This document shows, one piece after another, positions 15,690 to 60,533 of a DNA stretch of 64,000 bases. This stretch comes from a virus. The stretch is from positions 31,395 to 95,394 of IMG/VR virus record IMGVR_UViG_3300032323_000793; one strand, written 5' to 3'. The notes beneath the pieces were generated by a model. It was not told the DNA's origin. It saw nothing but the letters and a program-made list of their open reading frames with translations, and did not search any database. The translations under genes and the position numbers were made by a program. Each line of letters opens with the position of its first letter. The stretch's first letter is position 1.

Positions 15690-15987
15690 GCCGTTGTTTA
15701 GACCGCCAATGCATCTTGTAAAAGAGTGGCCAGAAGTATTTGAAGATATGTACATGAATACCATGCCTGTTGCATATCTTGAAATGGTACATTTGACATT
15801 TGAAGATGGCAGAATATGGCAGATTGATGTACGTGCTCAACTCCAAGGATCTGCTCCAGAATCTATCGCAGAAAAATTATTAGAGACTCTTCAAGAGTAC
15901 AAAGACGAAATAAAAAAGATAGATTTCAAAATAGATATAGAAAGATTGAAAAGAGATATTACCGATTCAACTAAGACTCTGTTTTAG
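15682..15987 (+). CDS. Conserved phage protein of unknown function
   Basis: This 101-residue protein begins PKPLFRPPMHLVKEWPEVFED, shown here in two parts by its Pro-rich start, followed by a two-strand unit (YLEMVHLTFEDGRIWQIDV) and a long charged C-terminal helix. It overlaps the previous gene by eight bases. Its last 17 bases also overlap, tail to tail, the end of the first minus-strand radical-SAM gene, so plus and minus transcription units collide with no space for a terminator. Confidence 0.6.
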   Translation: MPKPLFRPPMHLVKEWPEVFEDMYMNTMPVAYLEMVHLTFEDGRIWQIDVRAQLQGSAPESIAEKLLETLQEYKDEIKKIDFKIDIERLKRDITDSTKTLF

Positions 15988-17206
15988 TAGGAAAAGTAAT
16001 ATCTCTTACTTTTTCAAAAAAAGCAATTTTATCTACACCTTCTCGATATAGTTTTTCGTTTCTGCCAGACTTTATCATTTTTTCAATGTAACTTTTCAAC
16101 ATATCAATTCTTTCTCTGGTTCCGTTTCTTTCTAAGTACTCGAGATTATTTGATTCCCATTTAATATAATCCTCGTATATTTTAGTTTTAGTTTCTTGAG
16201 GAAGATGTGTTGGATCAAAATACTTAGGATTATATACATAATTGAACATGGGATGGGGTTCAATCGATGTTAATTGTGTAGATATTTCTTTGTGCCAATC
16301 TAAAAACTCTATAATTCTATCACAGTTTAATGAACTAAATGTTGCATGTATCTGTATGCTAATATTTCCTTGTTCTTTGGCCACAGTATTAATAGTTTCT
16401 AAATTATCTATTAACTTATTCCATTTCATTGGATATCTAATAAATTCATTTAATTTACCGTAAGCATCAACACTTACGCACAAATAAACACGTTTGAATT
16501 CTTTCCAACAGTCTAATATTTCTCTTGGTGTTTTGGTAAGATTAGAATTATAACTTAATACTATGTTCTTAGATATTCCAAGGTCAATAAATTTTTGTAA
16601 AAATGCTTGATGATCAATTATTAAAGGTTCGCCGCCAACAATATGTATTCTTTCAACTTTGCTAACAAAAGGATACAATTTTTCAAGACAACTTCCGTCA
16701 TGATACCAATCTAACTTCATCATCCTATCATAATGCTCTATAGGTATTTGTTTGGTATCTAATTGTTCTTTTAGAAATAAAGTACTGTTAAATCCATTAC
16801 ACATTACACATTTAAGATTGCATCTATTACCAAACGTGATATCTAGATAATAAAATTCTGCTTCTTTGATAGTGCCGTCTGCGTCACATTTTGAAATCCA
16901 ATAGTCTTCATCCATTGAAACTCCGAAACTTTCGTTGAACCATTGTCTCCAACTTATTTTTCCGTTACTTTCAATCTCCCAACATTTTTTACAAGTAGGA
17001 TGTTTTTTATCTTCTATAAAATATTTTCTTATTTCTTTGTGAAAATCATTATTAAAAGATTCTAAGACTTCAAATGTAGGATCGTTAAATTCTTTATTTT
17101 TTTCTAATCTATCATATCCTTGATTATTACAACATATTCGTTGTCTACCTGCATTATCGAGACTAAACGCAGCAAAAGGATATAGGCAAAAATTTTTTCT
17201 AGTCAT
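15971..17206 (-). CDS. Radical SAM protein with N-terminal SPASM/twitch-like cysteines
   Basis: This 411-residue protein has an N-terminal cysteine domain (C7, C25-C26, C72, C75 in the order FCLYPF, RICC, CKKCW) like the SPASM/twitch auxiliary-cluster module, followed by a radical-SAM core: GNRCNLKCVMC (C129, C133, C136) and HIVGGEPL. Radical SAM enzymes use a 4Fe-4S cluster to cut SAM and make radicals; SPASM/twitch members often modify peptides or carbohydrates. It is the last gene of a ten-gene minus-strand run and overlaps the gene before it by four bases. The order, auxiliary module first and core second, is shared by its neighbours at 18150 and 20596. Substrate unknown. Confidence 0.82.
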   Translation of the reverse strand: MTRKNFCLYPFAAFSLDNAGRQRICCNNQGYDRLEKNKEFNDPTFEVLESFNNDFHKEIRKYFIEDKKHPTCKKCWEIESNGKISWRQWFNESFGVSMDEDYWISKCDADGTIKEAEFYYLDITFGNRCNLKCVMCNGFNSTLFLKEQLDTKQIPIEHYDRMMKLDWYHDGSCLEKLYPFVSKVERIHIVGGEPLIIDHQAFLQKFIDLGISKNIVLSYNSNLTKTPREILDCWKEFKRVYLCVSVDAYGKLNEFIRYPMKWNKLIDNLETINTVAKEQGNISIQIHATFSSLNCDRIIEFLDWHKEISTQLTSIEPHPMFNYVYNPKYFDPTHLPQETKTKIYEDYIKWESNNLEYLERNGTRERIDMLKSYIEKMIKSGRNEKLYREGVDKIAFFEKVRDITFPTKTES

Positions 17207-18162
17207 TTTTCTTTAGTAATTAATATATCAGTTCCGCAATGACAATAGTCCTTTTGACAGGTAACATCGTTTAACGTTAATTTAAAAACATCAAATATGT
17301 TTCCCAACGACGGTCCTTGGCCGCAACTTGCTGCTCTCATTGTTCCGCTAGGTGAAATAAAAATAGATTCCTGAACTTTACATTTCCATCCTTGGAAAAA
17401 ATTCCTGTTTTCTGCTATAATTCTATTACTGTTCAAAGTTTTCGTAGTTCCATCATCGTATTTTTCTACAGAGGCAATTACTGTTTTTGGTTCAGGTTTA
17501 TATATAGTTATCTTAGATTCAAAATTATTTTTTGATATAAAATCTGATATTCTAGGATCTTTGTATTTCCACGGGCCTGCCACGACACTCATTTCATCTA
17601 ATAGCGGAACCCATTCAAGATTGTAGTTCTTTAATTTAGTTTTAATTTCATTTCCTACAACTAACATATCATCAAACTTTTCTTCTAATAGCATCATTCT
17701 CAAACAAAGATAATTTACTTTATTTTGTAAAAATTCTGCAATTTCTAAATAATTTGATTTATTTGCAAATTCAGGATGATAACTAGCAACTACATCATCA
17801 AACAATTGATAATGTTTTTCCCACCAAGAAATTTTTCTACTTAGGTTTGTGTTAATTCCCAAAGTTACATTATGACCCAATCGATCTTTAAGAAAATTAG
17901 ATACTGGTATTAAACCTTTCCACAGTGTAGGCTCGCCTCCACTATAATAAAACTTAAAATATACGTAACCATTATCTTGATAATATTTTATTATTTTTTC
18001 TAGATTCTCTATTAAAACATCAATTTTATCTTCATTGGTATAAGATCCACTCCAGTTTCCTTCGTTACAATAACTACATCTATAATTGCAAAAATTATTA
18101 ACTTGCCATGTTACAGCAAGATACGGATTGTCCTTAGGAGAAATGGCTATTAGATTCGGCAT
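17203..18162 (-). CDS. Radical SAM protein with C-terminal SPASM-like cysteines
   Basis: This 319-residue protein opens with the radical-SAM core: WQVNNFCNYRCSYC (C25, C29, C32), FYYSGGEPTLW and a run of beta-alpha units. The cysteine-rich segment is at the C-terminus (WKCKVQ, MRAASCGQ, CQKDYCHCG), the normal order for SPASM proteins and opposite to the other three in the operon. It lacks an N-terminal cysteine domain and looks compact. It overlaps the gene after it by four bases and the gene before it by 13. A role on peptide or sugar substrates is typical for the family, but none is shown here. Confidence 0.8.
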   Translation of the reverse strand: MPNLIAISPKDNPYLAVTWQVNNFCNYRCSYCNEGNWSGSYTNEDKIDVLIENLEKIIKYYQDNGYVYFKFYYSGGEPTLWKGLIPVSNFLKDRLGHNVTLGINTNLSRKISWWEKHYQLFDDVVASYHPEFANKSNYLEIAEFLQNKVNYLCLRMMLLEEKFDDMLVVGNEIKTKLKNYNLEWVPLLDEMSVVAGPWKYKDPRISDFISKNNFESKITIYKPEPKTVIASVEKYDDGTTKTLNSNRIIAENRNFFQGWKCKVQESIFISPSGTMRAASCGQGPSLGNIFDVFKLTLNDVTCQKDYCHCGTDILITKEK

Positions 18163-20603
18163 GATATCTCAAAAAATGTAGACTCGAAATTTGTGCCTCT
18201 ATGTTTGTCTAACAGTTTGTTAAACTCTAAAAATTCACCAATCTTGTCTTTTTGATATTCTTCACTGTAATAGTATTCGTAAATTTTTTGGAAAACTTCT
18301 TGTCCTACATATCTGTTTAGATATTTCAATTGTCTCTCTGCTTCTTGCATTTTAATTACAGCATCATTCCTCATTTCGCTACTCCATATTGTAGTGCGCA
18401 TAAAATTTGGATTGTCTAAGAAAATAGGGTACCAACCTACGGGTCGATATTCTGCTTTGTTATCAAGATAACGCCATATATCTGGTAAAGAAAATAAATT
18501 ATAAGCACTAATTACAGAATAAACTACAATCTTAATATTTGGCAGGGCTGCAATGGCAGTAAAATTATTATCAAATTCTTGCCAATTTAGAGGATGTCTA
18601 ACATAATTTCCTTCATCCCCAACTCCATCTATGCTAATCTGTATTTCATTATTAGGAAAATGAGACATCAAATCTAACAATTCGCCTTCTGCTGTTGTAC
18701 CGTTGGTAGTAAAACTTACAAAACAATCCGTATTGTTAGATTCTATGAGATTTTTTAGTAATGTTCTATTTTCTTTAATTAACGTAGGTTCGCCGCCTGT
18801 AAGATATATTCTTTTAAGATTGCCCGATACCTTTTGCATAGTATCTTTATATGTTTCATTTTTAAACCATTTATTAATATCAGCAGGAATATTTCGTTCA
18901 CTGGCCCACATTACTTGATATTTTTTATTTTCTGTCTCTTTGTCTAGAATACGTTGACGTTCTTCATTGACTTTGCTACTACTGCCGCCCCAACATGAAT
19001 TACAGGCTAAATTACAAGTATTACCTAATCTTAATTCTAAACTAGTTAATTTGTCTAAAGATACTTTTGAATTGTGTAAAAATTCATTCACCGACTGTAT
19101 AACATTAATATCAGATTGATATTTTTTATTAGATTCAGTTCTACTACTGCTACCAGATAATTTTTCGTGTCTATAACAGACTTGGCAGTCAGAGACTTCT
19201 TCACCCACTAACATTTTCCAACGAGCATTTTGCATATGTTCGTTATTCCAAATTTCTTCTATAGAATCTTGTCCTAAATTAAATTCGGTACTGTCAGACT
19301 TTTTAAGGTGAGAATTATCTCGTACAGTACAACACAGTTTTACACTACCGTCTGTATTGCTGTTTAAATTAAAGAAAGGAAATACGCAAAATGTTTTAGA
19401 TCTCATCGATGGAATTTTTAAATGATCTCTAAGTTCTGGAAAAGTTTCAAAAAGATCTTCATTTCGAATACTATCAACTGACTGATTAACGTATCCAAAT
19501 TTTTCTGTTAATTTAAATTTATTGTCTGGTTCAGTCATTAAAAAATTTATCACACTTTCAAACTGACTTATTACTGCCGTACTGGCTTCTGTATTTTTCA
19601 TTACAGCCTTGGTCCATGTAATTAGTTCGTTCCATTTATCGATAATGACGTGTTTATTTTCTAAAACATTGGCCTGTTGACGAGGAGGCTGAGTTAGTAT
19701 ATTCAATCTAATATTTTTAGGTTCTAATAATTCTTCTAGCACCCACTCTTTGTAAAAATCTGGAAAATGCCATACATTATAAAGACTTATAGTAGGAGTA
19801 ATATGAAATTTTACGCCGGGCAATAGTTTTAATTTTTTTCTGTTCTCGACTATATTTTTCCAGACGGTGCCTTTTCGTAAATATTCTCCTCGTTCCCACG
19901 ACGCATCTAAACTAGCATATACTTCAACCCTATAAAATTTACTCCATAAATCAAAAAGATCTATCTGCTTATATTTTAAAGTGCTAAGATTTGTAGTATA
20001 CATTAACTTAACATCAAAGCGTTTCATCTCGATTAATTTTGTTAAGGCAGCATAATGTTCTTCTTGCATCAATGCTTCGCCGCCTGCAAAAACTATTTCT
20101 TCAGCAGTTTCTAATGCCTGTTCGTAATAGTTCCAAAATTTTTCTCTTGGTATTTGAATGATTCCAGGATCTGGTTGATTTTTTAAAAGTGGAATTTCAG
20201 GTCCCCATTTGCTGCTTAATTCGGGGCCACATGTTCTACATTTAAAATTGCAGATGTTACTAAATCTAATATCAAGATATCTAACTTCACTCATTGTATC
20301 TTTTTTTGATTCAACAATAGGAATTAAATGTTTCTTGAATGTAGAACTAGTTGATTGCCTTAGTGTTTGAATTCCAGATTCTTCCAATTGGTAACAACGT
20401 TTGCAGCCCTCAGGACGTTCGTTGTTTAATAACTGACGTCTTAATTGTTTGTAAGAATCATTATTAACTAAGTCTTCAATATGTTCTTGATTAATGTTTC
20501 CAAGAGGTTTACTTGAATCGTACATACAGCAGGGGAAAACTGACCCATCGGGCCATGCATGAATTCCTACCCAAGGCTGTAAACAAAAATTGTCTTTATC
20601 CAT
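18150..20603 (-). CDS. Double radical SAM protein (tandem SPASM-like + radical SAM modules)
   Basis: This 817-residue protein is two copies of the same architecture fused. Module 1: auxiliary cysteines C7, C25-C26, C67, C70 then FSNICNFKCRTC (C118, C122, C125) and EIVFAGGEAL. Module 2, from about residue 400: FCVFPFF, KLCCTV, CQVCYRHEK, then LGNTCNLACNSC (C530, C534, C537) and IYLTGGEPTL. The first module has GGEA where the second has the normal GGEP. Both halves keep all three cluster cysteines, so both could be active. Such a fused pair might do two successive steps or form a built-in dimer. It overlaps neighbours by 13 and 8 bases. Confidence 0.82.
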   Translation of the reverse strand: MDKDNFCLQPWVGIHAWPDGSVFPCCMYDSSKPLGNINQEHIEDLVNNDSYKQLRRQLLNNERPEGCKRCYQLEESGIQTLRQSTSSTFKKHLIPIVESKKDTMSEVRYLDIRFSNICNFKCRTCGPELSSKWGPEIPLLKNQPDPGIIQIPREKFWNYYEQALETAEEIVFAGGEALMQEEHYAALTKLIEMKRFDVKLMYTTNLSTLKYKQIDLFDLWSKFYRVEVYASLDASWERGEYLRKGTVWKNIVENRKKLKLLPGVKFHITPTISLYNVWHFPDFYKEWVLEELLEPKNIRLNILTQPPRQQANVLENKHVIIDKWNELITWTKAVMKNTEASTAVISQFESVINFLMTEPDNKFKLTEKFGYVNQSVDSIRNEDLFETFPELRDHLKIPSMRSKTFCVFPFFNLNSNTDGSVKLCCTVRDNSHLKKSDSTEFNLGQDSIEEIWNNEHMQNARWKMLVGEEVSDCQVCYRHEKLSGSSSRTESNKKYQSDINVIQSVNEFLHNSKVSLDKLTSLELRLGNTCNLACNSCWGGSSSKVNEERQRILDKETENKKYQVMWASERNIPADINKWFKNETYKDTMQKVSGNLKRIYLTGGEPTLIKENRTLLKNLIESNNTDCFVSFTTNGTTAEGELLDLMSHFPNNEIQISIDGVGDEGNYVRHPLNWQEFDNNFTAIAALPNIKIVVYSVISAYNLFSLPDIWRYLDNKAEYRPVGWYPIFLDNPNFMRTTIWSSEMRNDAVIKMQEAERQLKYLNRYVGQEVFQKIYEYYYSEEYQKDKIGEFLEFNKLLDKHRGTNFESTFFEISCRI

Positions 20604-21969
20604 AATTTTTACACATCTCTAAAAAGTTTCTTAGTTGAGGGAAAGTTTCTTCAAAATTGGTTCCTCGTCTTCGATCATACTCGTTAAACCAATTATAAAA
20701 ATCTTTTCTTCCTTCAGTTAATTTATCATTGCTATAGTTGGTAGTTTCCATGTACTTTACTACCCTTAAAAATTTTTCATATTCTAATTCACTAAATTTA
20801 AACCTGTTATTATCATCTAAATTATCTTTGATAAAATTTAAATGATTGTACATATAGGTCATAAATTCTTCTTTAGGCAATATATTCATATCATACTGCA
20901 ACGGTTCTTTTAAAAACGGAGTATCAAATCTTACACGTTGCCATTTGTTTTGATTATTGCCATTATACTTTGTTCTCCACTCTAAAATTTTAGTTAGTAA
21001 AGTTGAAAAATTTGGAACCGTTAATATATTAAAGGTAATCATGAATGTTATAGGCAGATTTGTTTTAGTTAAGTAGGTATTGAGATTTCTTTCCCATAGT
21101 TCAATGTCTAATCCTGTTCGAATATACTCTGCTTGAGGACCCCAAGTATCCATACTAGTGAAAATTTTAAAATCTTTAATTTTTTTATTTTCTATTAAAT
21201 TATTAACCTTTTCAGTGAGTCTATCTAAAAGTATAGGCTTTACACCAAAATTACTGTTAATGTTAAGTTCGAGATCAGGCAACGGATTATTTTCTAAATC
21301 TTCTAACAGACGCCAAGTGCTTTGTTGCAATAGAGGCTCGCCTCCTGTAATGCGCAGGATTGTTAATGTCTTGCGAACTTCAGGCCACCAACGCCACCAT
21401 GCTTCAACATAGGGATTTTCTTCTTCTTCGTAAATTTTAAACCAGTCAATGTCATTACGATGATTTTTGACCATATCATACGGTCCATGATCTTTTATTT
21501 CTTTGTAATAACTGCTCGAATGTTTAGGATGACAATAGCCGCATTTAAAATTACACTCGTTACCAAATGAAATTTCTATATACTGTGGACTAATATTTTG
21601 ATCCCAGTCGCCATTTTTAATTTGATCGAATCGTTCAACATTATAAATGCTGGCATTTCTTTCTTTGCGATCACTGATATAATCTTCACCTAGTGCTTCT
21701 ATATTCCAACAGTAATTACAGCCACTAGGTTTTCCTCCATTAAGCATTTCTAGTCTTTCCATTTTCTTTTGACTAGTATTATGCAAAGCACTAGCATCTA
21801 TGGCAATTTCTTCCAAAGGAATTTTATGAGGAGGCGGGTGATAGCAACTATGCGTTTCACCGGTCTGTAAGTAGATAGTGGTGTGATGCCATTTAGCCAA
21901 ACAGAACGTAGGACTAACTTCATTCATTATGGGGATGAATTTTTGAATCCTAGTCTTGTCTTGCATCAA
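20596..21969 (-). CDS. Radical SAM protein with N-terminal cysteine module
   Basis: This 457-residue protein has an N-terminal auxiliary module with fewer cysteines than its relatives (TFCLAKW, HSCYHPPPH, GCNYCWN; a single Cys where the others have CC), then GNECNFKCGYCHPKHSS as the radical-SAM cluster loop and LRITGGEPLL for SAM binding. A conserved RxGTNFEETFPQLR-like end near residues 438-450 is also found at the end of the double protein (RGTNFESTFFE) and in its linker (FPELRDHL), linking the three as one family. It overlaps the glycosyltransferase gene upstream by 20 bases. Substrate unknown. Confidence 0.8.
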   Translation of the reverse strand: MMQDKTRIQKFIPIMNEVSPTFCLAKWHHTTIYLQTGETHSCYHPPPHKIPLEEIAIDASALHNTSQKKMERLEMLNGGKPSGCNYCWNIEALGEDYISDRKERNASIYNVERFDQIKNGDWDQNISPQYIEISFGNECNFKCGYCHPKHSSSYYKEIKDHGPYDMVKNHRNDIDWFKIYEEEENPYVEAWWRWWPEVRKTLTILRITGGEPLLQQSTWRLLEDLENNPLPDLELNINSNFGVKPILLDRLTEKVNNLIENKKIKDFKIFTSMDTWGPQAEYIRTGLDIELWERNLNTYLTKTNLPITFMITFNILTVPNFSTLLTKILEWRTKYNGNNQNKWQRVRFDTPFLKEPLQYDMNILPKEEFMTYMYNHLNFIKDNLDDNNRFKFSELEYEKFLRVVKYMETTNYSNDKLTEGRKDFYNWFNEYDRRRGTNFEETFPQLRNFLEMCKNYG

Positions 21970-23926
21970 ATTGTTCCTTTAACCAATCAAAATTATTAAT
22001 CATCGCTAATGCAGTTGGATTATTTTTATTCAGTTCTCCATATAATTTACCAGATTTTGCTCCTAGCATTGCATATTTTCCAAATGGTTTATCTTCCCCT
22101 TTGGAACACCATGTCTGTAAACGTAAAGTTGTTTCTTCTTCGTCTTGACGTTCAATAACACGACTGGCTAATTTACAGCACTCTCTGAATGCACTTCTCC
22201 ATGTAGAAAATTCATCTGTGTTAAAAGAATTTATATTAGAAACTTTATCTACTGCTTTAAACTTTTTAGAAATAGACGTTGTCATATCCGAAGTATCGAC
22301 ATTCATATCTACAACCATTTGTCTTGGTAGCAATTTAATACCACCATTACCATATTCTAAATTGTTAACAGGATTACGACTTTTCCATACATGCACACAA
22401 TCAATATCATACGAAGACATTACTAGATTAAAATCAAAATCATCTTCAATAATTGCATCTCCATCAACTACCCAGAACATATCTGTATTGCATAATTCTG
22501 CTGCTTTAATATGTGCTTGATGAATCCCTTTAACACCGTGTATTCGTTTTGCTCTAGGACATTTATCAAGTAGTTTTTTATAATTGGAATCTGCATTTGA
22601 TTCATTATAAGAAATAAAAACTACATCATATAGTTTATGTTTTGACACAGTCCTGTTGTGTTCTTTCTTTTCTATCAAAAATCTATGAATAAATTCTCTG
22701 TGGCTGATCATTTTTTCTTTAGAAAATAAAGTTACTCCGTTTATAAAAATTTCTTTATCGTTGAATAGATTTTTAAAAACATGATTTTCATTTCTATCAT
22801 GATCATATTTTCCATTATTAGGATCAAAATATAAATCAAAAACTGAATTATCAGTAACTTCGATCTCTGGCCAAATTCCCCAAAATAACGGCTGAGTTTC
22901 TGTTTTTATAATTTTTTCATAATCTTCATAGGTGTTAATCACGTAGCGATTATACCTGTAACAGGTCGCTATTTTGTCGTGTTCTTTTTTGTCCATGAGA
23001 TATTGTCTATCAAACTCTTTTTTAGAAATAATTTTAGATTTAGAAAACAATGTAAGTCCGCTGAGATAATATTCAGACCCGTTACATAAGTTTTTAAAAA
23101 CATGATTTTCATTTCTATCATAATCATATTGTCCGTCGCTGGGGTCAAAATATAAATCAAAAACAGTTTCATCTAATACTTCAGTATTAGGCCATTGGCA
23201 CCAAAACATTTTTTGATTTTCTTTTTCTAAAATTTCTTGATATTCTTTGTAACTTTTAATATGATAACGGGGATATCTGTATCTGCTGGCTATCTTGTCA
23301 TGCTCTTTTTTATCTACAGCATACTTGTTTTCAAATTCTCTTTTACTTAATTTTTTGTGCTTACTGTTAAGTAATATTCCGCCTACATAAGAAATTTGAT
23401 CGTTACACAAATTTTTAAAAATATGATTCTCTTTTCTGTCATATCCTGTATAATCAAATATTGACTCGTCGATAATTTCTATTTCAGGCCATACTAACCA
23501 ATATATGTCATCTGTTATAGACTCATACTCTTCGTAAGTATTAGGTCTGTATATATTGTATCTTTTTGGGCGGCTTAGTTCTATATCTATTTCTTTTTTA
23601 GAAATAAAATATCTATACTCAAACTCTCTATCACTTACGTTTAATAATTTAGGAAATAGACAAACACCATCAAACATCTGTCCATTTTTAAAAACATGAA
23701 CATACATGTCATCCCATTTAGTTGCTCGATATTCTAATGGATCAAAAGATTTGTTAAGTTTTAAATCGTCCCATATTACCCAAAACATTTTTGTAAATGC
23801 TCTAGACGATATATCCCTGTAAGATTTTACATGTTGTAGACGCTGCGCTAACGGGTATTGAGATTTTATCTCATTCCAGTCAGCATCATTGCCTGCATCT
23901 TTCGAAACATAAAAAATATCATACAT
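21950..23926 (-). CDS. Glycosyltransferase-like protein with four tandem repeats
   Basis: The C-terminal ~215 residues match the neighbouring 305-residue GT-A-like protein: DVVFISYNESNAD, AKRIHGVKG, AHIKAA and FWVVDGDA, where DGD stands for the DxD metal/nucleotide-sugar motif. Before it lie four repeats (next entry). I place the start at 23926 (MYDIFYVSKDAGN), 11 codons inside the longest frame, because this aligns with the strand start of the catalytic unit and overlaps the upstream stop by eight bases. The N-terminal ~45 residues look like the start of another GT-A unit, so repeats may be inserted into or added to the fold. Acceptor unknown; virion proteins are plausible given the late operon. 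Confidence 0.68.
   Translation of the reverse strand: MYDIFYVSKDAGNDADWNEIKSQYPLAQRLQHVKSYRDISSRAFTKMFWVIWDDLKLNKSFDPLEYRATKWDDMYVHVFKNGQMFDGVCLFPKLLNVSDREFEYRYFISKKEIDIELSRPKRYNIYRPNTYEEYESITDDIYWLVWPEIEIIDESIFDYTGYDRKENHIFKNLCNDQISYVGGILLNSKHKKLSKREFENKYAVDKKEHDKIASRYRYPRYHIKSYKEYQEILEKENQKMFWCQWPNTEVLDETVFDLYFDPSDGQYDYDRNENHVFKNLCNGSEYYLSGLTLFSKSKIISKKEFDRQYLMDKKEHDKIATCYRYNRYVINTYEDYEKIIKTETQPLFWGIWPEIEVTDNSVFDLYFDPNNGKYDHDRNENHVFKNLFNDKEIFINGVTLFSKEKMISHREFIHRFLIEKKEHNRTVSKHKLYDVVFISYNESNADSNYKKLLDKCPRAKRIHGVKGIHQAHIKAAELCNTDMFWVVDGDAIIEDDFDFNLVMSSYDIDCVHVWKSRNPVNNLEYGNGGIKLLPRQMVVDMNVDTSDMTTSISKKFKAVDKVSNINSFNTDEFSTWRSAFRECCKLASRVIERQDEEETTLRLQTWCSKGEDKPFGKYAMLGAKSGKLYGELNKNNPTALAMINNFDWLKEQFDARQD
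22640..23790 (-). repeat. Four in-frame repeats of 91-107 codons in the glycosyltransferase gene
   Basis: Each unit begins FW-x-x-WP-x-x-E and contains NHVFKNL, a GxTLFSK-like strand, ISxREF, KKEHDK and RYxYxRYxI, ending TYEDYEK. Anchors (the FKN codons) begin near 22770, 23091, 23412 and 23685, giving spacings of 321, 321 and 273 bases. The two youngest copies keep runs of over 20 identical bases, pointing to recent duplication. Copies 3 and 4 share DLYFDPxxGxYDxDRNEN; copies 1 and 2 are shorter there. The units resemble a WGR-free, acceptor- or peptide-binding module, but I know no named family. Confidence 0.75.
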
Positions 23927-24836
23927 CTGCAGGCACCGGCATCCGGAAATAAGTGTCATTTAGATTCATAGTTTCATTATATAAATCCAAAGTATATTTG
24001 CTCTGTTGAGCATCTAGCCAAGGCCAATCTAATCCTAGATTGTATTTTATTTTTTCACCGAGATTTTTTATTTCATCAACTAAACCTTCTTCGTTGACTT
24101 CTTCGTACGGTTTTCCGTACTGCTGCCATATATCTCTAAGTATTTCAAAATCTCTTACATCTACATAATTCCAGTCTGTGCAATTAGCCATCCATGTTCC
24201 TAATCTTGCACCGTATACTGCATAGATTCCATTTTCTTCATGACTGCCAACTGTAGACCACATACGCAATCTATGAATATTATGCCACCAAATTCTTTGT
24301 TGTATTTCTTGCGGAGGAACTTTGACACCGTCAAATAATGTCATTTTAACTCCTTCTCGGAATCCTGCTCTCCAAGCCTGGAATGGCGAACCTGTAATAA
24401 CACTGTCGCTGAAACTTAGAGGAAAGTTACGATATCCATCTTCCCAACAAAAGTCTACTTGTCCACGGTCGCTATCAGAGTTTTCGTGAGTGCGCATGTT
24501 AAGGACAAAATCTTTTTTCCAGATTTTTAATCCACCGTTGCCATAACGCAGTCCGTTAATAACGTTACGACCGCACCACCCGTAGACCTGTATTTTAGGA
24601 TCGCTCATATCGAGATCTATATTAAAAAACTTAGGATCTACTATATTGTCTGCATCTACTGTGATAAACCAATCAGTGTCTGATAGATTTGCAGCAGCCT
24701 TGTGTGCATGATCCGAACCCTTTACGCCGTGTACACGTTTAGCCCAAGGCACTTTACTGCAAAGGTCAGCATAATGGAGATCAGCATTTGGCTCATCGTA
24801 ACTTAAAAAGATAACATCAAATTCAATTGTTTTCAT
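23919..24836 (-). CDS. GT-A-like glycosyltransferase
   Basis: This 305-residue protein starts with FDVIFLSYDEPNAD and continues AKRVHGVKGSDHAH and WFITVDADNIVD, where DAD fits the DxD motif that binds the metal and sugar nucleotide in GT-A enzymes. Later segments (NGLRYGNGGLKIWKK, FSDSVITGSPFQAWRAGF) match the C-terminal part of the repeat-bearing protein encoded next to it (NLEYGNGGIKLLPR, FSTWRSAFRE), so the two are paralogues. It is in the middle of the radical-SAM operon, overlapping the upstream gene by 14 bases. A transferase that sugar-coats a phage protein is a fair guess, but the acceptor is not known. Confidence 0.7.
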   Translation of the reverse strand: MKTIEFDVIFLSYDEPNADLHYADLCSKVPWAKRVHGVKGSDHAHKAAANLSDTDWFITVDADNIVDPKFFNIDLDMSDPKIQVYGWCGRNVINGLRYGNGGLKIWKKDFVLNMRTHENSDSDRGQVDFCWEDGYRNFPLSFSDSVITGSPFQAWRAGFREGVKMTLFDGVKVPPQEIQQRIWWHNIHRLRMWSTVGSHEENGIYAVYGARLGTWMANCTDWNYVDVRDFEILRDIWQQYGKPYEEVNEEGLVDEIKNLGEKIKYNLGLDWPWLDAQQSKYTLDLYNETMNLNDTYFRMPVPADV

Positions 24837-25410
24837 TTACAAGAATATATTTTTTAAAAATGCGACGTGTATATACACTAAATTTTTTAGGTAGTTTAAT
24901 TTGAAAACTTTTTTCTTCTTCGATTAACTGATTCAATTGTATTGAAAATTTTTCAAAAAGTATATTAGGATCATTGTACTCAGTAATGTAAAAATCCATT
25001 ATGGTATCACCATTATAGTGAATTCTTTTTTTAGATTTTACTTTATCTGACAAAGAAAAAATTAAATTATCTCCCTTAACTTTTACAGTCAAATCAGGGT
25101 CTTTTGAATCAGCCCAATAACTATCTATTATTCTGTGTAGGACATCATCAATTTTAATTAAAGATTTAATTTCTATTATTTCAAGGGTGTCTGATTCAAA
25201 ATCAATATAACAGTTAGCCAAGGATATTCTTCCATCACCGATGGCTTCTCCTATTTCTTGATCTATTTTAATTTTATGTTCGAAGTTATCTGCAGATTGG
25301 TTAGGATATATTCCTTTTACTTTACCTGTTTCAGGATCGTAAACTGCCCAATACTCAATTTCTATTTTATGATCTTGATACCATTTATCGAAATCAATTA
25401 CTTCTTCCAT
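24823..25410 (-). CDS. Unknown protein of the radical-SAM operon
   Basis: This 195-residue protein is not recognised. Its N-terminal part (IDFDKWYQDHKIEIEYWAVYDPETGKVKGIYP) contains a two-strand beta unit, followed by acidic strands (NCYIDFESDTLEIIEI) and a C-terminal helix with KSFQIKLPKKFSVYTRRIF. It has no cysteines suited to a cluster and no membrane segment. It overlaps the genes on both sides by 13-14 bases and is therefore translated with them. An adaptor or substrate-recognition protein for the operon's enzymes is possible. Confidence 0.62.
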   Translation of the reverse strand: MEEVIDFDKWYQDHKIEIEYWAVYDPETGKVKGIYPNQSADNFEHKIKIDQEIGEAIGDGRISLANCYIDFESDTLEIIEIKSLIKIDDVLHRIIDSYWADSKDPDLTVKVKGDNLIFSLSDKVKSKKRIHYNGDTIMDFYITEYNDPNILFEKFSIQLNQLIEEEKSFQIKLPKKFSVYTRRIFKKYILVNENN

Positions 25411-26225
25411 GCCGTTTCCTCGAGTATGTTGATTATCTCATCTAGGATGATATCTTTATTAACATAATGTATGAGATCTTTCTGTTGAAAATTTCCTATT
25501 TTTAAACCTGTTTTATTAAAATAAAATCCCACATGATTGGTCCATTCGTCAGCGGGCCATGGCCAATTTTGCACTTGACCTTTCATGTGTACTACATTAG
25601 GAAATTCTAATTTAGGAAATTCTAGTTCTAATAATTTTGCAGATAGAGCAAATGCTTCATCTGTACCGATTATTTTAGGTTTAAACTCGTTGAGAAAACC
25701 GTTAGAAAATTCTGTTGGATTATTATAGATTTCTCTCTGTAAATTAAAAAATTCTTTTACTTGATCTGAATCTCTTTTGAAAAAAGTATAATAACTATAT
25801 AGGTTTGGTAAGTTATTGGCTGTAAATGTTTTTCTGTAGTAATCAGAAGTTACAGGCTCGCCTCTATAGGTAAATGCTCTGTCTGTAATAAACAAATCTG
25901 TATTTTCAATAAAATACTCTACCCAATGACTACAATCATTTAAAAACAGCATGTCAACATCTAAACAGACTGTGTAATCAAAAGGACTTAATTGGTCCAT
26001 ATAACTTCTGCCAGACCAGCCAGTATGTTCTTGATGTTCTAGTATTTGATCAAATACCCACGAAGATGTAAAATTTTTTGCCGACTGCACATCATCTGTG
26101 ACCAGACAAACTTGATCATACCCTTCTTTCTGTGTGTTTTTTATACTCAACGCAAGGGCATAGGCTAATTTGTTATAATCAACAGATTCGTTTTTTGAAG
26201 TGATTAGTAAATATCCAAATTTCAT
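25398..26225 (-). CDS. GT-A-like nucleotide-diphospho-sugar transferase (1)
   Basis: This 275-residue protein begins FGYLLITSKNES, then LAYALALSIKNTQ, VCLVTDD and FDYTVCLDVDMLFLND, where DVD is the DxD motif of GT-A enzymes. The layout (YALALS-helix, CLVTDD strand, LDVDMLFL) is like glycogenin/GT8-type transferases. A later HMKGQVQNWPWP segment gives the C-terminal His/Trp region typical of acceptor sites. It is paralogous to the next upstream gene at 26222 by the same motif order. It overlaps that gene by four bases and the following gene by 13. Confidence 0.66.
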   Translation of the reverse strand: MKFGYLLITSKNESVDYNKLAYALALSIKNTQKEGYDQVCLVTDDVQSAKNFTSSWVFDQILEHQEHTGWSGRSYMDQLSPFDYTVCLDVDMLFLNDCSHWVEYFIENTDLFITDRAFTYRGEPVTSDYYRKTFTANNLPNLYSYYTFFKRDSDQVKEFFNLQREIYNNPTEFSNGFLNEFKPKIIGTDEAFALSAKLLELEFPKLEFPNVVHMKGQVQNWPWPADEWTNHVGFYFNKTGLKIGNFQQKDLIHYVNKDIILDEIINILEETAWKK

Positions 26226-27079
26226 ATTAGTTTAAGCAAAACTTCACTGTTCCTTATCAAACTCTGTTTGTTCATAACGTGAACATCTTGATTCTTAATA
26301 GAGATTGCAACGTAATCGTCGTTACCTTGATTAACTAAAAAAATCAATTTTCCGTTAGCATCTATATCTACTAACAGATCTTTATCTGTGGTTGTAGGAA
26401 TTGGTGGTAAACTTTGTTCTTTTGATTTACTATAACCATCTAATATGTGTTTAGCGACACTGAATGAAATATCGTTCCTGTATGGCCTAGGATAAAATCT
26501 AAAAAGGTCACAATAATAAGAATAGTTTTCTTTGATATAGTCTACTAAATCAAAGAATATTTTTGTATTTTCGTTTTTTGTAAAAACTACATTAGTAGCC
26601 CAATATAAATTAGGACCGGTGTCTGAAACATACTTATCTAAGGTTCCTACTCGATTTCCACCCAAATCAATCATCGATTCTCCTATCATTAAATCGATAT
26701 CACAATCAATATGAGACTTTAATCTATCTGAAAAAATTAAAAAGTCACTATCAATTAATAATGTTCTATCATAAGGAGTTAAGTTCCAAACTGAATATCT
26801 ATTATTATTGATAAAAGGAACATTGTCTATAAGATTACCATCGCTCAATGTTCTATAATTTTCTGAGTAGGGACGTTCAGTTATAATTATTTGATCAAAA
26901 ACAGATTCAGCATCTTTTATAGAATTACTACTGCTCATCCAATCCATGGTAGATTGGTCAGTGATTAATGAAACTGGCAGTTGAAGATGCTTCTTCGCTA
27001 GTCCTCCAGCAATTATAGACATAAGACTATAATCAACCTTTCGACTGTTGTGAGCAAAAATAACTATTCCTTTTTTCAT
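26222..27079 (-). CDS. GT-A-like nucleotide-diphospho-sugar transferase (2)
   Basis: This 285-residue protein has GIVIFAHNSRKVDYSLMSIIAGGLA, split by a turn, then VSLITDQSTMDWM and YDRTLLIDSDFLIFSD, where DSD is the DxD motif. Motif order and spacing match the 275-residue transferase encoded after it, so they are likely a duplicated pair. The C-terminal ~60 residues differ (KLIFLVNQGNDDYVAISIK). It lies second in the operon, with four-base overlaps on both sides. It probably uses a nucleotide sugar, but donor and acceptor are unknown. Confidence 0.62.
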   Translation of the reverse strand: MKKGIVIFAHNSRKVDYSLMSIIAGGLAKKHLQLPVSLITDQSTMDWMSSSNSIKDAESVFDQIIITERPYSENYRTLSDGNLIDNVPFINNNRYSVWNLTPYDRTLLIDSDFLIFSDRLKSHIDCDIDLMIGESMIDLGGNRVGTLDKYVSDTGPNLYWATNVVFTKNENTKIFFDLVDYIKENYSYYCDLFRFYPRPYRNDISFSVAKHILDGYSKSKEQSLPPIPTTTDKDLLVDIDANGKLIFLVNQGNDDYVAISIKNQDVHVMNKQSLIRNSEVLLKLI

Positions 27080-27426
27080 AGTTCTATGAGTTTATCTACT
27101 GATCTAGATTTTTTTATTTTTTCATACTGCCTAAAATATTCATAAACCGCAGTCATATACCTATCTAAAATTTCATCTTTAAAGGTATTCAAATTAGAAA
27201 TTAAAATAGGGGTATCATTTGAGTCTAGGAGAGGAACATTTTCAGTTCTTTGGTGATCGATCAGGAGTTGAACAAACACTATCAAAGATTTATCAATTTT
27301 AAAAATGCCTCCATTATACCCGTAGGTTAAGTTAGCATCAATTTTCTCTTTGAGATTTTTACGTTCTAATGTTAGTGTTTGCCTAAATTTTGAAAAATCT
27401 AGGGCTTTGGCCAGACGTTCGTCCAT
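27076..27426 (-). CDS. Leading small protein of the radical-SAM operon
   Basis: This 116-residue protein is of unknown function and largely helical (ALDFSKFRQTLTLERKNLKEKI, LVYGYNGG-like turn at NLTYGYNGGIFKID, a final charged helix). It resembles conserved small proteins seen in other T4-like phages from memory, without a known role. It is the first gene of the operon, starting 26 bases after a TATAAATA late promoter. Its ribosome site AGGAG lies five bases before the ATG and sits in the 3' arm of an 11-bp hairpin. It shows no RiPP-precursor look: no Cys/Gly-rich core or leader cleavage site. Confidence 0.62.
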   Translation of the reverse strand: MDERLAKALDFSKFRQTLTLERKNLKEKIDANLTYGYNGGIFKIDKSLIVFVQLLIDHQRTENVPLLDSNDTPILISNLNTFKDEILDRYMTAVYEYFRQYEKIKKSRSVDKLIEL

Positions 27427-27431
27427 GTGAA

Positions 27432-27475
27432 CTCCTATAAAATACGCACATTATTTATATGTGGTTTTATAGGAG
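27432..27475 (-). promoter_or_regulatory. Hairpin that buries the operon's first ribosome site
   Basis: On the minus strand an 11-bp perfect inverted repeat has arms at 27475-27465 (CTCCTATAAAA) and 27442-27432 (TTTTATAGGAG). Inside it a second 5-bp repeat (CACAT/ATGTG, 27447-27463) surrounds a 7-base loop. The 3' arm contains the AGGAG ribosome site of the 27426 start. There is no U-run after the stem, so it is not an intrinsic terminator. The perfect late promoter sits in the inner stem-loop. Confidence 0.75.
27452..27459 (-). promoter_or_regulatory. Perfect T4 late promoter TATAAATA
   Basis: TATAAATA on the minus strand equals the T4 late consensus at all eight positions. RNA would begin near 27446, downstream of the hairpin's 5' arm and upstream of AGGAG and the ATG at 27426. 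It lies in the 55-base gap between the virion block and the radical-SAM operon. gp55, encoded in this window, is the expected specificity factor. Confidence 0.75.
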
Positions 27476-27481
27476 GAAAAA

Positions 27482-28453
27482 TTAACTGCCGGAAATAGAG
27501 CCTACTGTAGATGCGCTGCCGCCAACTAATATTGGTCCAGCAATAGCAAAACTGTTAGGAATTAATGAAGGGGCCAAATCGCCTCTAGCCCGTACTTGAT
27601 CTACACTTAATGTTAATGTTCCTGTGACTTCGTCAAAAGGAAGAATAGTAGTCGGTGTATGTGGAGATGTTGCAGGATCAACATAATTATCCTGCCATCT
27701 CACCGTTAGTATAACAGATGTTGCAGTACTAGTAGTTCCACTAGCCAATCTAGCCCGTAATACCCATGTGTTTGCAGTATAGGGACTGCTGGCCTGGAAT
27801 GACCAAACCTGTTGATCAGATGTGGTCAATTGCCAAAAACCAATATTATTGTATGTAGCGTTGCCGCCGGAGGCAGGGTATATAGTAGAATCACCGGCAA
27901 AAAAAGGCTGACCTGCACCGCTTAATAAACTAGACCATCTTTGATCTTGAAGGGTTCCTGATCCGCCCGATCTAGTGCTGGCAAATCTTATTCTACCGCC
28001 ACTATTAAAGAAATATCTACAGGCATTATTATCTGCAAAATTGATTGTAACTGTGGAAGTAACTAGAGAAGTCCAGTTAGTGGATCTTGATTGAGATCCG
28101 ATAGCCTCTGTAACAAACTGCCCTGAACCTAGATTAAATTTATTTGTTATTGCCTGATCTGCCAATGTGTTATATTGAAAATTAGGATGTGATGTTCCGT
28201 ATCTTATAACATCACCTTCATTAATTGTAGTAATACTTGGGGCTGAACCAGTTTGGTGTACTATGGCATTATAGATATCAAATCTTAAATTATCCCATTG
28301 TGCTTTAGTTACTGTGGCACCTGCCGATAATGCTGTAGGAGCATTTAAAGTTTGACCATATCCACTGCTAGTAGAACCTGGTCCCATGATACCAGAAATT
28401 TTAGTTCTAATATTGTTATAGTCCGTTACACTAATTAAATCACCGATTGGCAT
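27482..28453 (-). CDS. Virion structural protein (tail-fibre region)
   Basis: This 323-residue protein begins PIGDLISVTDYNNIRTKISG, then alternates Gly/Ser/Thr-rich loops with beta strands (TVTINFADN, FFNSGGRIRFAS, STATSVILTVRW). An NxxRxxI + ALSAGATVTKAQWDNLRFDI unit repeats the N-terminal DYNNIRTKI idea. The composition is typical of phage tail proteins and it follows the fibre genes in the same direction. AAGGA precedes the start. It could be a fibre-attachment protein, head decoration or small fibre; I do not recognise a named family. Confidence 0.68.
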   Translation of the reverse strand: MPIGDLISVTDYNNIRTKISGIMGPGSTSSGYGQTLNAPTALSAGATVTKAQWDNLRFDIYNAIVHQTGSAPSITTINEGDVIRYGTSHPNFQYNTLADQAITNKFNLGSGQFVTEAIGSQSRSTNWTSLVTSTVTINFADNNACRYFFNSGGRIRFASTRSGGSGTLQDQRWSSLLSGAGQPFFAGDSTIYPASGGNATYNNIGFWQLTTSDQQVWSFQASSPYTANTWVLRARLASGTTSTATSVILTVRWQDNYVDPATSPHTPTTILPFDEVTGTLTLSVDQVRARGDLAPSLIPNSFAIAGPILVGGSASTVGSISGS

Positions 28454-28463
28454 TTTTTATTCC

Positions 28464-30209
28464 TTATAACACTAACACTTCTATAGTTTTGACGCCAACA
28501 TCTTGATCGCTCTGTAAAGCGATACCAAAAACATCCGGATGTTGATGGAAACTGGCAGCAATAGCACAACCATTTTCTGTAGCCACTAATCGATCGCCTT
28601 TGCGTACTGATCCTACTACCTTACACGGCACACGACCTTTTAATGCTATATATGTTCCACCTTCTAACTCACTGTTCATCATGAATGCTGGTGATTTAGA
28701 TACTATTCCAATGGCACGATCTCCAAAAACAGTGGCTCTAACTTCTGCTTCTCCGCCTACTGCTACTACTGTGCCTGGTTCATACTCACGATCTGTAAGA
28801 TACTTTTCTGCTAAGTCAGCATATCGAGCGGCTGTGGCAGTCCCGTCAAACAACACTGCAAATAAATTACCCGAACTATCTCTGGCTGCAATGGTATTAG
28901 AAGCAGCAATAGTTTTAGCAGATCTATAACTAGCATCTATATCTGTAGCACTGTCATCAATTTTTAATCTATCCGACTTATCTGCAATTCCAATAAATCT
29001 ATTTGCTGTAAGATTGGCTGATGCATCTCTGATAGCCACTGATACTGCTACCGCGCCAAACTCACTATTTAAACTGTTTAAAGTTAATGCATTACTAGCC
29101 GTTCCAGTAACTGAACCAATAACGTTTCCAGTGACTGTGCCGTTTAAATTTCCAATAACGTTACCAGTTAAATTGCCTACTACTGGGCCTGTATGTGTAC
29201 CAGATGTGTTGCCAGTTACTGATCCACTTAGATTTCCTGTAAATGTTGTAGCATAAACATTAGCCCAATTTTCTGTAGATGAACCTAAATTATAAAAATT
29301 GTTAGCGCCTGGCAAAAATCCTGTAGAAGTAACATAAAAATTACGTGCATCGCTGGCCGAAACTCTTACACGAAGAGTCAGCGGGCTGGCTAATCTAGAT
29401 TCAATGATTGGTTCGTCACCATTCTCTATTTTAAGGACTAGATCTTTACTGTATGAAGGAAAATTACCGCCAATAGTTAAGCCAGGATCTGAATAATTTA
29501 CTTCTGTATCGAATCGAACTTCGCCAGTTCTTACATATTCGCTGGCTAAAAAACCACCCAATCTTGCAGCATTTGATGCTGTTCCCCAATAGAAGTGATC
29601 AGTACTAGTAACTCCTGTAGACCCGTTAGTGTTTACAAGATTCAAACCTTTCTTTATTACAGTAAATCCAGTGATAGGATTCAATCCGCTATCTAGGGTA
29701 AACGCATCTTTGCTAACAATAGCAATAGTATCACCACCAGAAATAATTTTTCCTATGCTGTGATTGGTTCCTAGAGTATCTTTTACTACCTGTGCTGTTA
29801 ATGAGGCAGCACCTAATTCTGGGGTGGTTTCTGGTCCTATCAAAACATATGTAGAACCATTATAGGCATACAACTGTTCTGCGCTAGTATCAAACCAAAA
29901 ATCTCCTGCTTGAAGACCAGATGGTGCTGTTGCACCTATTTCTGCACCGCTGGCAGTCCTAAATCGACTACCGTCATAAAATCTTAACTTTTTATTACCA
30001 CTATCGTACCATATCTGTCCGGTTATTACCTTAGGCGGAGCACTGGTATTTGAGAAATTTTCTAATAAATGTAAAAAATTCTCGTTTTGTACTTCGCCGT
30101 ATCCTGCGTAATTTTTACCCACAAAACGTATGTCGGTGGTGGTATCAATGGTTCCGTCTTCTACAGAAACTAATCTTGTTCCATTAAACTTGTCTACTTG
30201 ATATGCCAT
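28464..30209 (-). CDS. Tail-fibre paralogue 1
   Basis: This 581-residue protein shares with three neighbours an N-terminal unit of ~125 residues: a TRLVSVEDGTID start, FVGKNYAGYGEVQNENFLHL split as GKNY/GYGE/NENF, then GQIWYD, LRFYDGS, GDFWFDTSAEQLY and a VLIGPE end. This unit probably anchors the fibre. A glycine-rich low-complexity stretch follows (next entry). The C-terminal ~120 residues (ARYADLAEKY, YEPGTVV, GIVSKSPAFMMNSEL, GRVPCKVVG) also occur in the next fibre, so two fibres share both ends. Collectively these would bind host surface. GGAG precedes the start, with a late promoter upstream. Confidence 0.75.
   Translation of the reverse strand: MAYQVDKFNGTRLVSVEDGTIDTTTDIRFVGKNYAGYGEVQNENFLHLLENFSNTSAPPKVITGQIWYDSGNKKLRFYDGSRFRTASGAEIGATAPSGLQAGDFWFDTSAEQLYAYNGSTYVLIGPETTPELGAASLTAQVVKDTLGTNHSIGKIISGGDTIAIVSKDAFTLDSGLNPITGFTVIKKGLNLVNTNGSTGVTSTDHFYWGTASNAARLGGFLASEYVRTGEVRFDTEVNYSDPGLTIGGNFPSYSKDLVLKIENGDEPIIESRLASPLTLRVRVSASDARNFYVTSTGFLPGANNFYNLGSSTENWANVYATTFTGNLSGSVTGNTSGTHTGPVVGNLTGNVIGNLNGTVTGNVIGSVTGTASNALTLNSLNSEFGAVAVSVAIRDASANLTANRFIGIADKSDRLKIDDSATDIDASYRSAKTIAASNTIAARDSSGNLFAVLFDGTATAARYADLAEKYLTDREYEPGTVVAVGGEAEVRATVFGDRAIGIVSKSPAFMMNSELEGGTYIALKGRVPCKVVGSVRKGDRLVATENGCAIAASFHQHPDVFGIALQSDQDVGVKTIEVLVL
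29095..29250 (-). repeat. Short Gly-Asn/Val repeats in fibre 1
   Basis: About 50 codons encode repeats of the type VTGN-VIGN-LNGT-VTGN-VIGS, a four-residue rhythm with Gly third and hydrophobic first positions. This pattern suits a parallel beta-helix or triple beta-spiral shaft of a fibre. Codons for Gly and Val vary, so the repeat is protein-level and old rather than a fresh DNA slippage tract. Confidence 0.6.
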
Positions 30210-30231: not shown

Positions 30232-30239
30232 TATTTATC
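30232..30239 (-). promoter_or_regulatory. T4-type late promoter GATAAATA
   Basis: On the minus strand GATAAATA (one base from TATAAATA) lies in the 41-base gap before fibre 1, about 23 bases upstream of its ATG at 30209 and followed by a GGAG ribosome site. It would drive fibre 1 separately from the upstream fibres. Confidence 0.5.
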
Positions 30240-36025: not shown

Positions 36026-36694
36026 TTACACCTCAACGAAACTAGTTAGACTCTGTATTCTAATCGTGTAATCGATTTGTAAAAGTCTGTTCAATGATTT
36101 TTGCACAGGATGAAATATAACATGTGTTAGAAGTTTTCCTGTTCCGTCTGGGTTGTAACTGCGCAAACCTAATTCATCGAATACAAAATTTCCGCTCATA
36201 TCTACAGAATTGTCAAATGCCTGTTGGCCATCTGGTTCAGAATAATCAAGAACACAACTTACAATAATGTCGCTATAAGTAGCACCGCTAATATGGCGTA
36301 TTTCCATTTTGTTTCTTACAGGATCTGTATTATTAGCAGAATTTTGATCAATAACTTTGCTGTATGTTTGATTATACAAACTAGTATTAATACCTACAGT
36401 ATTAGTTGTTAGATATGTAATCAATCCTGTAGGATCTACTGTAGTTCCTCCATTGCCAAAAACCATTTCATATATGGTTCCCTGTCCTTGATTGCTCAAA
36501 GCATTGACCATGGCCACACTCATATTTTCGTAGTGGATGGCATTTCTTTTATCTATTAGGACTTCTCCGTTTTCTGGATCAAATATTTTGATATGTCCTT
36601 CGAAATGAAAACCCCCAGTTTCGTTGGGTTTTTCATATTTTTGTTGATTTTCGGGCTGATTTTCTATCATGTTTGGCTCTGATGATTTATTCAT
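36026..36694 (-). CDS. Virion/baseplate-associated structural protein
   Basis: This 222-residue protein has a disordered polar N-terminus (about 30 residues, Asn/Gln/Glu-rich) and a beta-rich body: FHFEGHIKIFDPENGEVLID, EMVFGNGGTTVDPTG, YSDIIVSCVLDY and NFVFDELGLRSYN. The look is that of fibre-attachment or baseplate-periphery proteins in T4-like phages. It lies between the giant gene and the fibres. There is no Shine-Dalgarno; instead AATAAATA, a late-type element, lies five bases before the ATG and overlaps the stop of the giant gene. Confidence 0.65.
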   Translation of the reverse strand: MNKSSEPNMIENQPENQQKYEKPNETGGFHFEGHIKIFDPENGEVLIDKRNAIHYENMSVAMVNALSNQGQGTIYEMVFGNGGTTVDPTGLITYLTTNTVGINTSLYNQTYSKVIDQNSANNTDPVRNKMEIRHISGATYSDIIVSCVLDYSEPDGQQAFDNSVDMSGNFVFDELGLRSYNPDGTGKLLTHVIFHPVQKSLNRLLQIDYTIRIQSLTSFVEV

Positions 36695-36699
36695 AGTAG

Positions 36700-36707
36700 T
36701 ATTTATT
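36700..36707 (-). promoter_or_regulatory. Late-type element AATAAATA at a gene junction
   Basis: The minus-strand sequence AATAAATA (one base from TATAAATA) contains the TAA stop of the giant gene and is followed by five bases and then the ATG at 36694. If it acts as a late promoter the RNA begins at or near the start codon. The stop-codon overlap means chance cannot be ruled out. Confidence 0.4.
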
Positions 36708-53837: not shown

Positions 53838-53845
53838 TATTTATT
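53838..53845 (-). promoter_or_regulatory. T4-type late promoter AATAAATA
   Basis: The minus-strand AATAAATA, followed by CGTG, lies about 18 bases upstream of the gp6 ATG at 53820, in the only gap of the baseplate gene run. One base from the T4 consensus. A perfect 12-base palindrome (ATTTTGCAAAAT, 53843-53854) overlaps it, of unknown meaning. Confidence 0.52.
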
Positions 53846-59666: not shown

Positions 59667-60533
59667 TTGATAACAACACAACCACCTAAGATAAAATATC
59701 TTACAAACAAGGATTTATTAAAAGAAATACATTTAAGCAAAAATACGTATTGCAGTTTTACTAGCCCAGAATATCATGAATATGACATGATCGTTCCTAA
59801 TTTAGAAAAAATTAATATACGAACTATTGCTGATGCAAAACGAACTAGGGCCACAAGACAGGCCAAACAAAATTACGAAGCGGCGCAATCTAAAGGAGGT
59901 AAAAAACTATCTCTAAAAGACTTCGAAATAGATTACAAGAAAATATCTAAACAGGACGTAGTTTTCCGTGTTATGACTTTTGAACATATTCCACTTGCTC
60001 CTGGACGTAAAAAGACTTTGAAGAATACTGCCGATAGTCACGAAAAAGTAAACTTTCCTCCATTCCAGCATTGGAAGTTTGACGAAAATAACAATTTAAT
60101 TTTAGTTGGAAAGAGTCACTGGAAGGGCGGATTAACTAACGGGTCGTTTAATAAAGAGCACGGAAAAATGACCGACAATTTAGCACGGATGTTTTTAAAA
60201 CTCTGTGAAAGATATGCAACTAGAGGCAACGTTCGAGGTTATACTTACAACGATGAAATGCGTGGGCAGGCAATTTTACAGTTAACGCAGATTGGTCTAC
60301 AGTTCGATGAAAGCAAATCTGATAATCCGTTTGCTTATTATACTGCTGCTGTTACAAATTCATTTGTACGAATTATTAACATTGAAAAACGTAATCAAAA
60401 TATCCGTGACGACATCTTAGAAATGAATGGCATGAATCCAAGTTGGACTAGACAGAATGCCAGCGGAGGAAGTTTTGGTCCTACCGGCGGTAGTGGATCG
60501 TCAGAAGGCGGTGGCGGTGGAGATTGGGATTGA
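59667..60533 (+). CDS. 55: Late transcription sigma factor gp55-like
   Basis: T4 gp55 is a minimal sigma that recognises TATAAATA and works with gp33 and the clamp. This 288-residue protein has the family start (PKIKYLTNKDLLKEI) and core: MTDNLARMFLKLCERYATRGN, split at the Leu, then MRGQAILQLTQIGLQFDESKSDNPFAYYTAAVTNSFVRII, again split; DNPFAYYTAAVTNSF matches T4 KNPHAYITQACFNAF. It is 100 residues longer than T4 (185), owing to an insert of about 90 residues after the N-terminus, and ends in a Gly/Ser-rich tail (GGSGSSEGGGGGDWD). Start is TTG, with TAGGAG eight bases upstream. Several RATAAATA sites in the window fit its job. Confidence 0.85.
   Translation: MITTQPPKIKYLTNKDLLKEIHLSKNTYCSFTSPEYHEYDMIVPNLEKINIRTIADAKRTRATRQAKQNYEAAQSKGGKKLSLKDFEIDYKKISKQDVVFRVMTFEHIPLAPGRKKTLKNTADSHEKVNFPPFQHWKFDENNNLILVGKSHWKGGLTNGSFNKEHGKMTDNLARMFLKLCERYATRGNVRGYTYNDEMRGQAILQLTQIGLQFDESKSDNPFAYYTAAVTNSFVRIINIEKRNQNIRDDILEMNGMNPSWTRQNASGGSFGPTGGSGSSEGGGGGDWD

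Follow-up and report, generated by a model that had tools for sequence, protein, structure and literature searches.

The closest described systems to the locus treated here are the late leaders of T4-type phages and the read-through protection of insertion sequences, of which the fold-back inhibition of IS10 is one example. T4 genes e, soc and 49, I-TevI, and Aeh1 mobE share a Shine-Dalgarno (SD) sequence and/or AUG that is base-paired in read-through RNA (PMC3014915, PMC2988022). In e and I-TevI the 5′ strand of the helix comes from a segment that also contains the late promoter, and RNA initiated at this promoter is open (PMC3014915, PMC2988022); the long RNA of gene e is translated about 100-fold less (PMC3014915). 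The known T4 leaders are explained by timing, with lysis proteins or nucleases being kept from early synthesis. The T4 late promoter itself is an 8-bp box situated about one turn upstream of the RNA start (PMC2988020), and the late promoter of the cyanomyoviruses S-PM2 and Syn9 is NATAAATA, located upstream of structural genes (PMC2984593). In IS200, a terminator stem is combined with a stem that occludes the ribosome binding site (RBS) (PMC3196728).

The window analysed here is a stretch of 64,000 nucleotides of viral DNA (IMG/VR record IMGVR_UViG_3300032323_000793, positions 31,395 to 95,394). The operon of interest begins with ORF1 (116 aa; 27076..27426, minus strand, as are all features below unless stated otherwise) and continues over 15971..27079 with a 285-aa gene, a 275-aa gene, further genes and four radical-SAM genes (20596-21969, 18150-20603, 17203-18162 and 15971-17206). 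By inspection only, the products of the 285-aa and 275-aa genes are glycosyltransferase-like; a search of bacterial genomes found no relatives of the 285-aa protein. The upstream neighbour of ORF1 encodes 323 aa (27482..28453) and is the last gene of a tail-fibre block. This block is late, with ATAAATA promoters of its own at 53838, 36700 and 30232. The last of these, GATAAATA (30232..30239), belongs to the tail-fibre gene 28464-30209 and would be the nearest source of read-through RNA. Strong sigma70-like sites on the operon's strand number 6, against 16.8 expected, and only late promoters are seen upstream.

Reading along the minus strand, the stop codon of the upstream gene (27482) is followed by six bases, the 5′ arm of a hairpin, CTCCTATAAAA (27475-27465), the box TATAAATA (27452-27459), the 3′ arm, TTTTATAGGAG (27442-27432), and the ORF1 ATG (27426-27424). 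The arms match each other without a mismatch as an inverted repeat of 11 bp. The SD sequence AGGAG (27432..27436) lies within the 3′ arm, 5 nt before the ATG. An earlier note on this DNA had described the repeat, with AGGAG in one arm and the box between the arms, and that description is correct to the base; the arrangement is not a product of chance. Both arms are defined by the exact repeat and by the fold, which also shows an inner stem around the loop (27447..27463), where 27459-27463 pair with 27447-27451. Only RNA that reads in from upstream, and so carries the end of the 323-aa gene, would contain the 5′ arm.

The RNA of 27490-27420 has a predicted folding energy of -17.3 kcal/mol, and a single stem covers AGGAG and leaves the promoter box in a 7-nt loop; shuffled sequences average -8.8 kcal/mol (z -2.95), with 2 of 200 folding equally well. 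Opening the ribosome site (-13 to +3) is predicted to cost 13.9 kcal/mol in read-through RNA versus 4.9 kcal/mol in RNA from the predicted start, as computed on the relative L048, whose leader sequence is identical to that of the window. The predicted folds thus bear out the earlier proposal that read-through RNA hides AGGAG and that internally initiated RNA is open. When the 5′ arm region alone is shuffled, in a manner that preserves base composition only, the cost falls to 6.5 ± 1.6 kcal/mol (p 0.007). The 95,394-bp record was analysed as the window joined with two further stretches; of its 109 gene starts, that of ORF1 ranks first for burial of the ribosome site that depends on upstream sequence. 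All these folds are equilibrium folds, with co-transcriptional folding ignored.

Equating the late promoter with exact TATAAATA, of which the window has a single copy and the genome two, proved too strict, and ATAAATA was adopted as the working motif. It has 13 copies in the genome, 12 of which sit 8-50 nt upstream of a gene start (p about 3e-14), and baseplate and tail-fibre genes are among those behind these boxes. Late promoters of the T4 type (NATAAATA) are situated just upstream of late gene starts, and the boxes of the window's phage have this placement. A late sigma factor of the gp55 type is encoded on the plus strand at 59667..60533 (phrog_12791, E 1.2e-78). Because of the placement of ATAAATA, the presence of gp55, and the match to NATAAATA and to the T4 box, the box at 27452-27459, a promoter call made by consensus as are the others here, is very probably a late promoter. 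By the T4 rule (PMC2988020), its RNA would start between the arms, near 27446, one helical turn or so downstream of the box.

Relatives of ORF1 were sought in two scans of viral contigs, which yielded 43 and 107; 80 of the 107 were taken, and these contain 64 distinct upstream regions. The relatives are metagenomic fragments. The gene neighbourhood is well conserved in the 64 distinct loci: the upstream 323-aa gene or a relative of it is present in 61, the 285-aa gene in all 64 and the 275-aa gene in 60. Many loci also keep other genes of the operon, those for radical-SAM proteins among them. Among relative records long enough to be tested, 15 of 20 carry gp55.

An SD could be scored in 53 distinct relatives, where upstream sequence raises the cost of opening it by a median of 4.85 kcal/mol; for 288 control genes on these contigs the figure is 0.13 kcal/mol (Mann-Whitney p 3e-17). 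The effect is at least 5 kcal/mol in 26 of the 53 relatives and in 2 of the 288 controls, and one of these two is itself the first gene of the operon in a rearranged locus (L087). RNAalifold, applied to a MAFFT alignment of the late-promoter clade, returned no consensus structure, because the arms shift register, and a covariance model built from five close members reached near relatives only. Alignment-free tests, with swapped arms and with arm shuffles, were therefore employed. In 52 non-redundant loci, the native flanks score -8.98 in pairing and swapped flanks -4.51 (z -13.7; none of 5000 permutations as good), and the difference holds for loci with a late promoter alone (z -6.8) and for those with a sigma70-type promoter alone (z -7.6). 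Since native arms pair far better than swapped ones, there is compensation, i.e., the arms change together. They vary in sequence yet remain complementary, and on this comparative evidence the helix is selected. Shuffling of the 5′ arm alone reduces burial of the RBS in both classes (Fisher p 1e-18, late; 1e-12, sigma70), and an arm of this kind is absent from 94 control genes with a promoter of their own, 64 of them late (Fisher 0.94) and 30 sigma70 (Fisher 0.51). The helix, the compensating changes and the positions and classes of the promoters are in all cases computed.

The rearranged locus L087 separates the helix from ORF1. Here ORF1 is internal to the operon and has no hairpin; a relative of the 285-aa gene is now the first gene, with a stem of ~15 bp over its ribosome site (L087:2180-2219). 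As judged from this arrangement, the helix is tied to the start of the operon and not to one particular gene. Elsewhere in the tail regions of two relatives, other genes with late promoters are situated behind RBS-covering hairpins with TATAAATA inside (L059:2683-2757, with a stem of ~11 bp, and L122:1900-1974). From these sequences, the hairpin device may be used more than once.

Two classes of promoter are found at this position. The late box is present in the loop at 21 loci, 20 of which form one supported clade (98/96) on the ORF1 tree; the remaining locus, L123, is outside that clade on a long branch, in a tree of 117 columns whose deep branches are unsure. At the same place, 31 of the 64 distinct relatives have a sigma70-type promoter, nearly always TTGACA-like with a 17-bp spacer and TATAAT or TATACT. 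Where these loci have a hairpin, the 5′ arm falls within the 17-bp spacer or overlaps it, with the -10 box in the loop or beside it (e.g., L116, L106, L124, L040). The upstream fibre gene of the sigma70 loci, and often the adjoining upstream gene as well, carries ATAAATA late boxes. The distance from the upstream stop codon to the arm is mostly 3-10 nt in the late clade and mostly 10 nt or more in the sigma70 clade. A significant arm is lacking in about half of the relatives of the sigma70 class (e.g., L045, L080, L088, L105, L108, L111); some lineages can therefore do without the device, having lost or never gained it. In one relative (L143), an 18-kb stretch (G003:168000-186312, minus strand) displays about 25 near-perfect TTGACA-17-TATAAT promoters, most of them ~30 nt before a small ORF, and ATAAATA is almost absent. 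This suggests, from promoter arrangement, that the stretch is an early-gene array and that TTGACA-17-TATAAT is the early class of the group.

A subgroup (L068, L071, L091, L100 and L083) buries the start codon, instead of or in addition to the SD. A 5′ strand, (G/A)TCTAAATAGT, pairs with ACTATTATGGA(C/T) over the start codon, and in part of the subgroup there is a compensating alternation of GTC/GAC with ATC/GAT. The sequence TCTAAATAG in these five loci resembles a late box but is the strand whose partner is CTATTATGGA at the start codon, and the five are not counted in the late class.

These properties point to the operon start as an insulator against read-through that acts in cis, after the manner of T4 gene e, in which the operon would be translated from its own promoter only and tail-gene RNA would be silent; a probability of about 0.78 is given to this reading. 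RNA that enters from the tail-fibre genes would hold both arms, fold and conceal AGGAG, such that initiation at ORF1 is blocked. RNA from the loop promoter would begin ~10 nt upstream of AGGAG, lack the 5′ arm and have an open ribosome site. The timing would then be set by the loop promoter, which is late and presumably gp55-dependent in the window's clade and of the early sigma70 type in about half of the members. The RNA starts, the read-through, the repression and the timing in this scheme are deduced from the predicted structures and promoters. Several properties speak against it. The arm is missing from about half of the sigma70-class relatives, and the folds are equilibrium predictions. 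The 5′ arm of the late clade mostly starts inside the footprint of the terminating ribosome, and ribosomes on the preceding gene might interfere with folding. Also, in the window's phage, read-through RNA and internal RNA would both be late, and the benefit is not obvious. One possibility is that, with the tail genes very strongly transcribed, the dose of the chaperone-like ORF1 and of the modifying enzymes encoded downstream is kept in check.

The anatomy, including the TATAAATA box, is the same as that of T4 e, soc, 49 and I-TevI, where early read-through RNA is silenced (PMC3014915). From the logic of T4 e and soc, the earlier note had concluded that the operon must not be translated too early. 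A timing gate of this kind, with the operon made late only, seems quite unlikely. The upstream block is structural and late and has ATAAATA promoters, sigma70-like sites on the strand are scarce, and lateness is not conserved, given the early-type promoter in 31 of the 64 relatives. Thus the T4 e logic of the earlier note stands with respect to anatomy, gp55, ATAAATA promoters and compensating changes; the silencing of early read-through is hard to fit to the late upstream block, and the inference about early translation is not upheld. Because the hairpin is kept across the change from late to early-type promoter, and because the upstream tail genes are late, the conserved effect is taken to be insulation from tail-gene read-through RNA, whenever this RNA is made, rather than lateness. 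The closeness of the 5′ arm to the stop codon in the late clade could be read differently: ribosomes finishing the upstream tail gene may melt the arm and thereby fix the ratio of the two proteins. ORF1 resembles in fold the DUF4376 proteins of phages, which include a tail-fibre chaperone (PMC7289586), and this would suit such translational coupling. Coupling is nevertheless considered unlikely, as the arm of the sigma70 clade is mostly farther from the stop codon and the promoter between the arms is left unexplained; moreover, the short distance may simply reflect the packing of stop codon, arm and promoter into ~57 nt.

A hairpin at this position might also end or process read-through RNA, as a terminator, an RNase III site or the 3′ end of the tail mRNA. 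A run of U follows the 3′ arm in four relatives, and IS200 provides a precedent for a terminator stem beside an RBS-occluding stem (PMC3196728), but most members have no U run, and pairing involves the SD or the start codon, whereas a terminator could do without these bases. In the window the stem is followed by GGAGTTCACATG (TTCACATG) with no U run, and an intrinsic terminator there, defined as a stem plus U run, was rejected. Transcriptional insulation of this type is decidedly improbable. The four relatives with the U run are L123, L078, L040 and L090, where the stem may double as a terminator. Finally, the repeat is centred on the promoter box, as might be expected of a DNA operator bound by a dimeric repressor. 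An operator would conserve sequence; here the arms diverge among relatives and it is complementarity to the SD or start codon that is kept. This reading is extremely improbable and was rejected on account of the divergent arms.

With the read-through insulator as the preferred reading, the locus has the predicted pairing of SD or AUG in the long RNA, a late promoter between the arms (in the window and the late clade) and gp55 in common with T4 gene e. The sigma70 clade differs in having an early-type promoter between the arms. For this clade a reversal of the T4 gene e switch is conceivable, at somewhat less than even odds: early-type RNA would be translated and late tail read-through silenced. 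If so, one RNA device would serve opposite timing by way of a swapped loop promoter. There are further differences from the T4-type leaders, which serve lysis genes or homing endonucleases. Here the genes are chaperone-like and sugar/radical-SAM genes, and read-through comes from a late tail block. The device is also kept throughout a deep family, although the hairpin holds promoters of different classes in different members. The likeness to the read-through protection of IS200 is that RNA from outside hides the RBS (PMC3196728). In contrast to insertion sequences, this is a phage operon with no transposase and no terminal repeat, and its arms diverge freely; the genes of the locus are phage tail, chaperone-like and radical-SAM genes, and none marks a transposase element. 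The cyanomyoviruses S-PM2 and Syn9 share the late motif, and the hairpin is not described in the accessible part of that report (PMC2984593). The 'host recognition cluster' of pelagimyophages is similar in content, with tail fibres, glycosyltransferases and radical-SAM cassettes; the accessible part of that account describes no RNA switch and states that promoter-finding methods worked poorly there (PMC7029224).

Predicted RNA folds thus suggest that, in a large T4-like phage family known from uncultured members, the operon behind the tail-fibre genes has its promoter in the loop of an RBS-hiding hairpin. Persistence of the hairpin across a change in promoter class, and its presence at the new first gene in one rearranged genome, suggest that insulation is what is selected, and natural pairs of phages allow timing and insulation to be told apart. 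An SD complement, a promoter and an SD within ~45 nt provide a compact and searchable signature of operon starts in uncultured phages.

At the translated amino acid level, ORF1 has no Pfam or PHROG match, the DUF4376 family model does not match it by sequence, and no relatives were found in annotated phage records, although the ORF1 family has >100 viral members. Its AlphaFold (AF2) model has a pLDDT of 90, and Foldseek matches the model to DUF4376 phage proteins with a probability of 1.00 (best named match, E 3.5e-5). Gp27 of Alteromonas phage V22, a relative of a DUF4376-containing protein, has been shown experimentally to be a tail-fibre chaperone (PMC7289586). From the modelled fold, ORF1 may be a tail-fibre chaperone-like protein, which is consistent with its location behind the fibres. 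The tail block upstream also contains a single open frame of 4569 aa (36703-50412), with a late promoter box, AATAAATA, at the 3′ end of the frame that serves the next gene (36026-36694).
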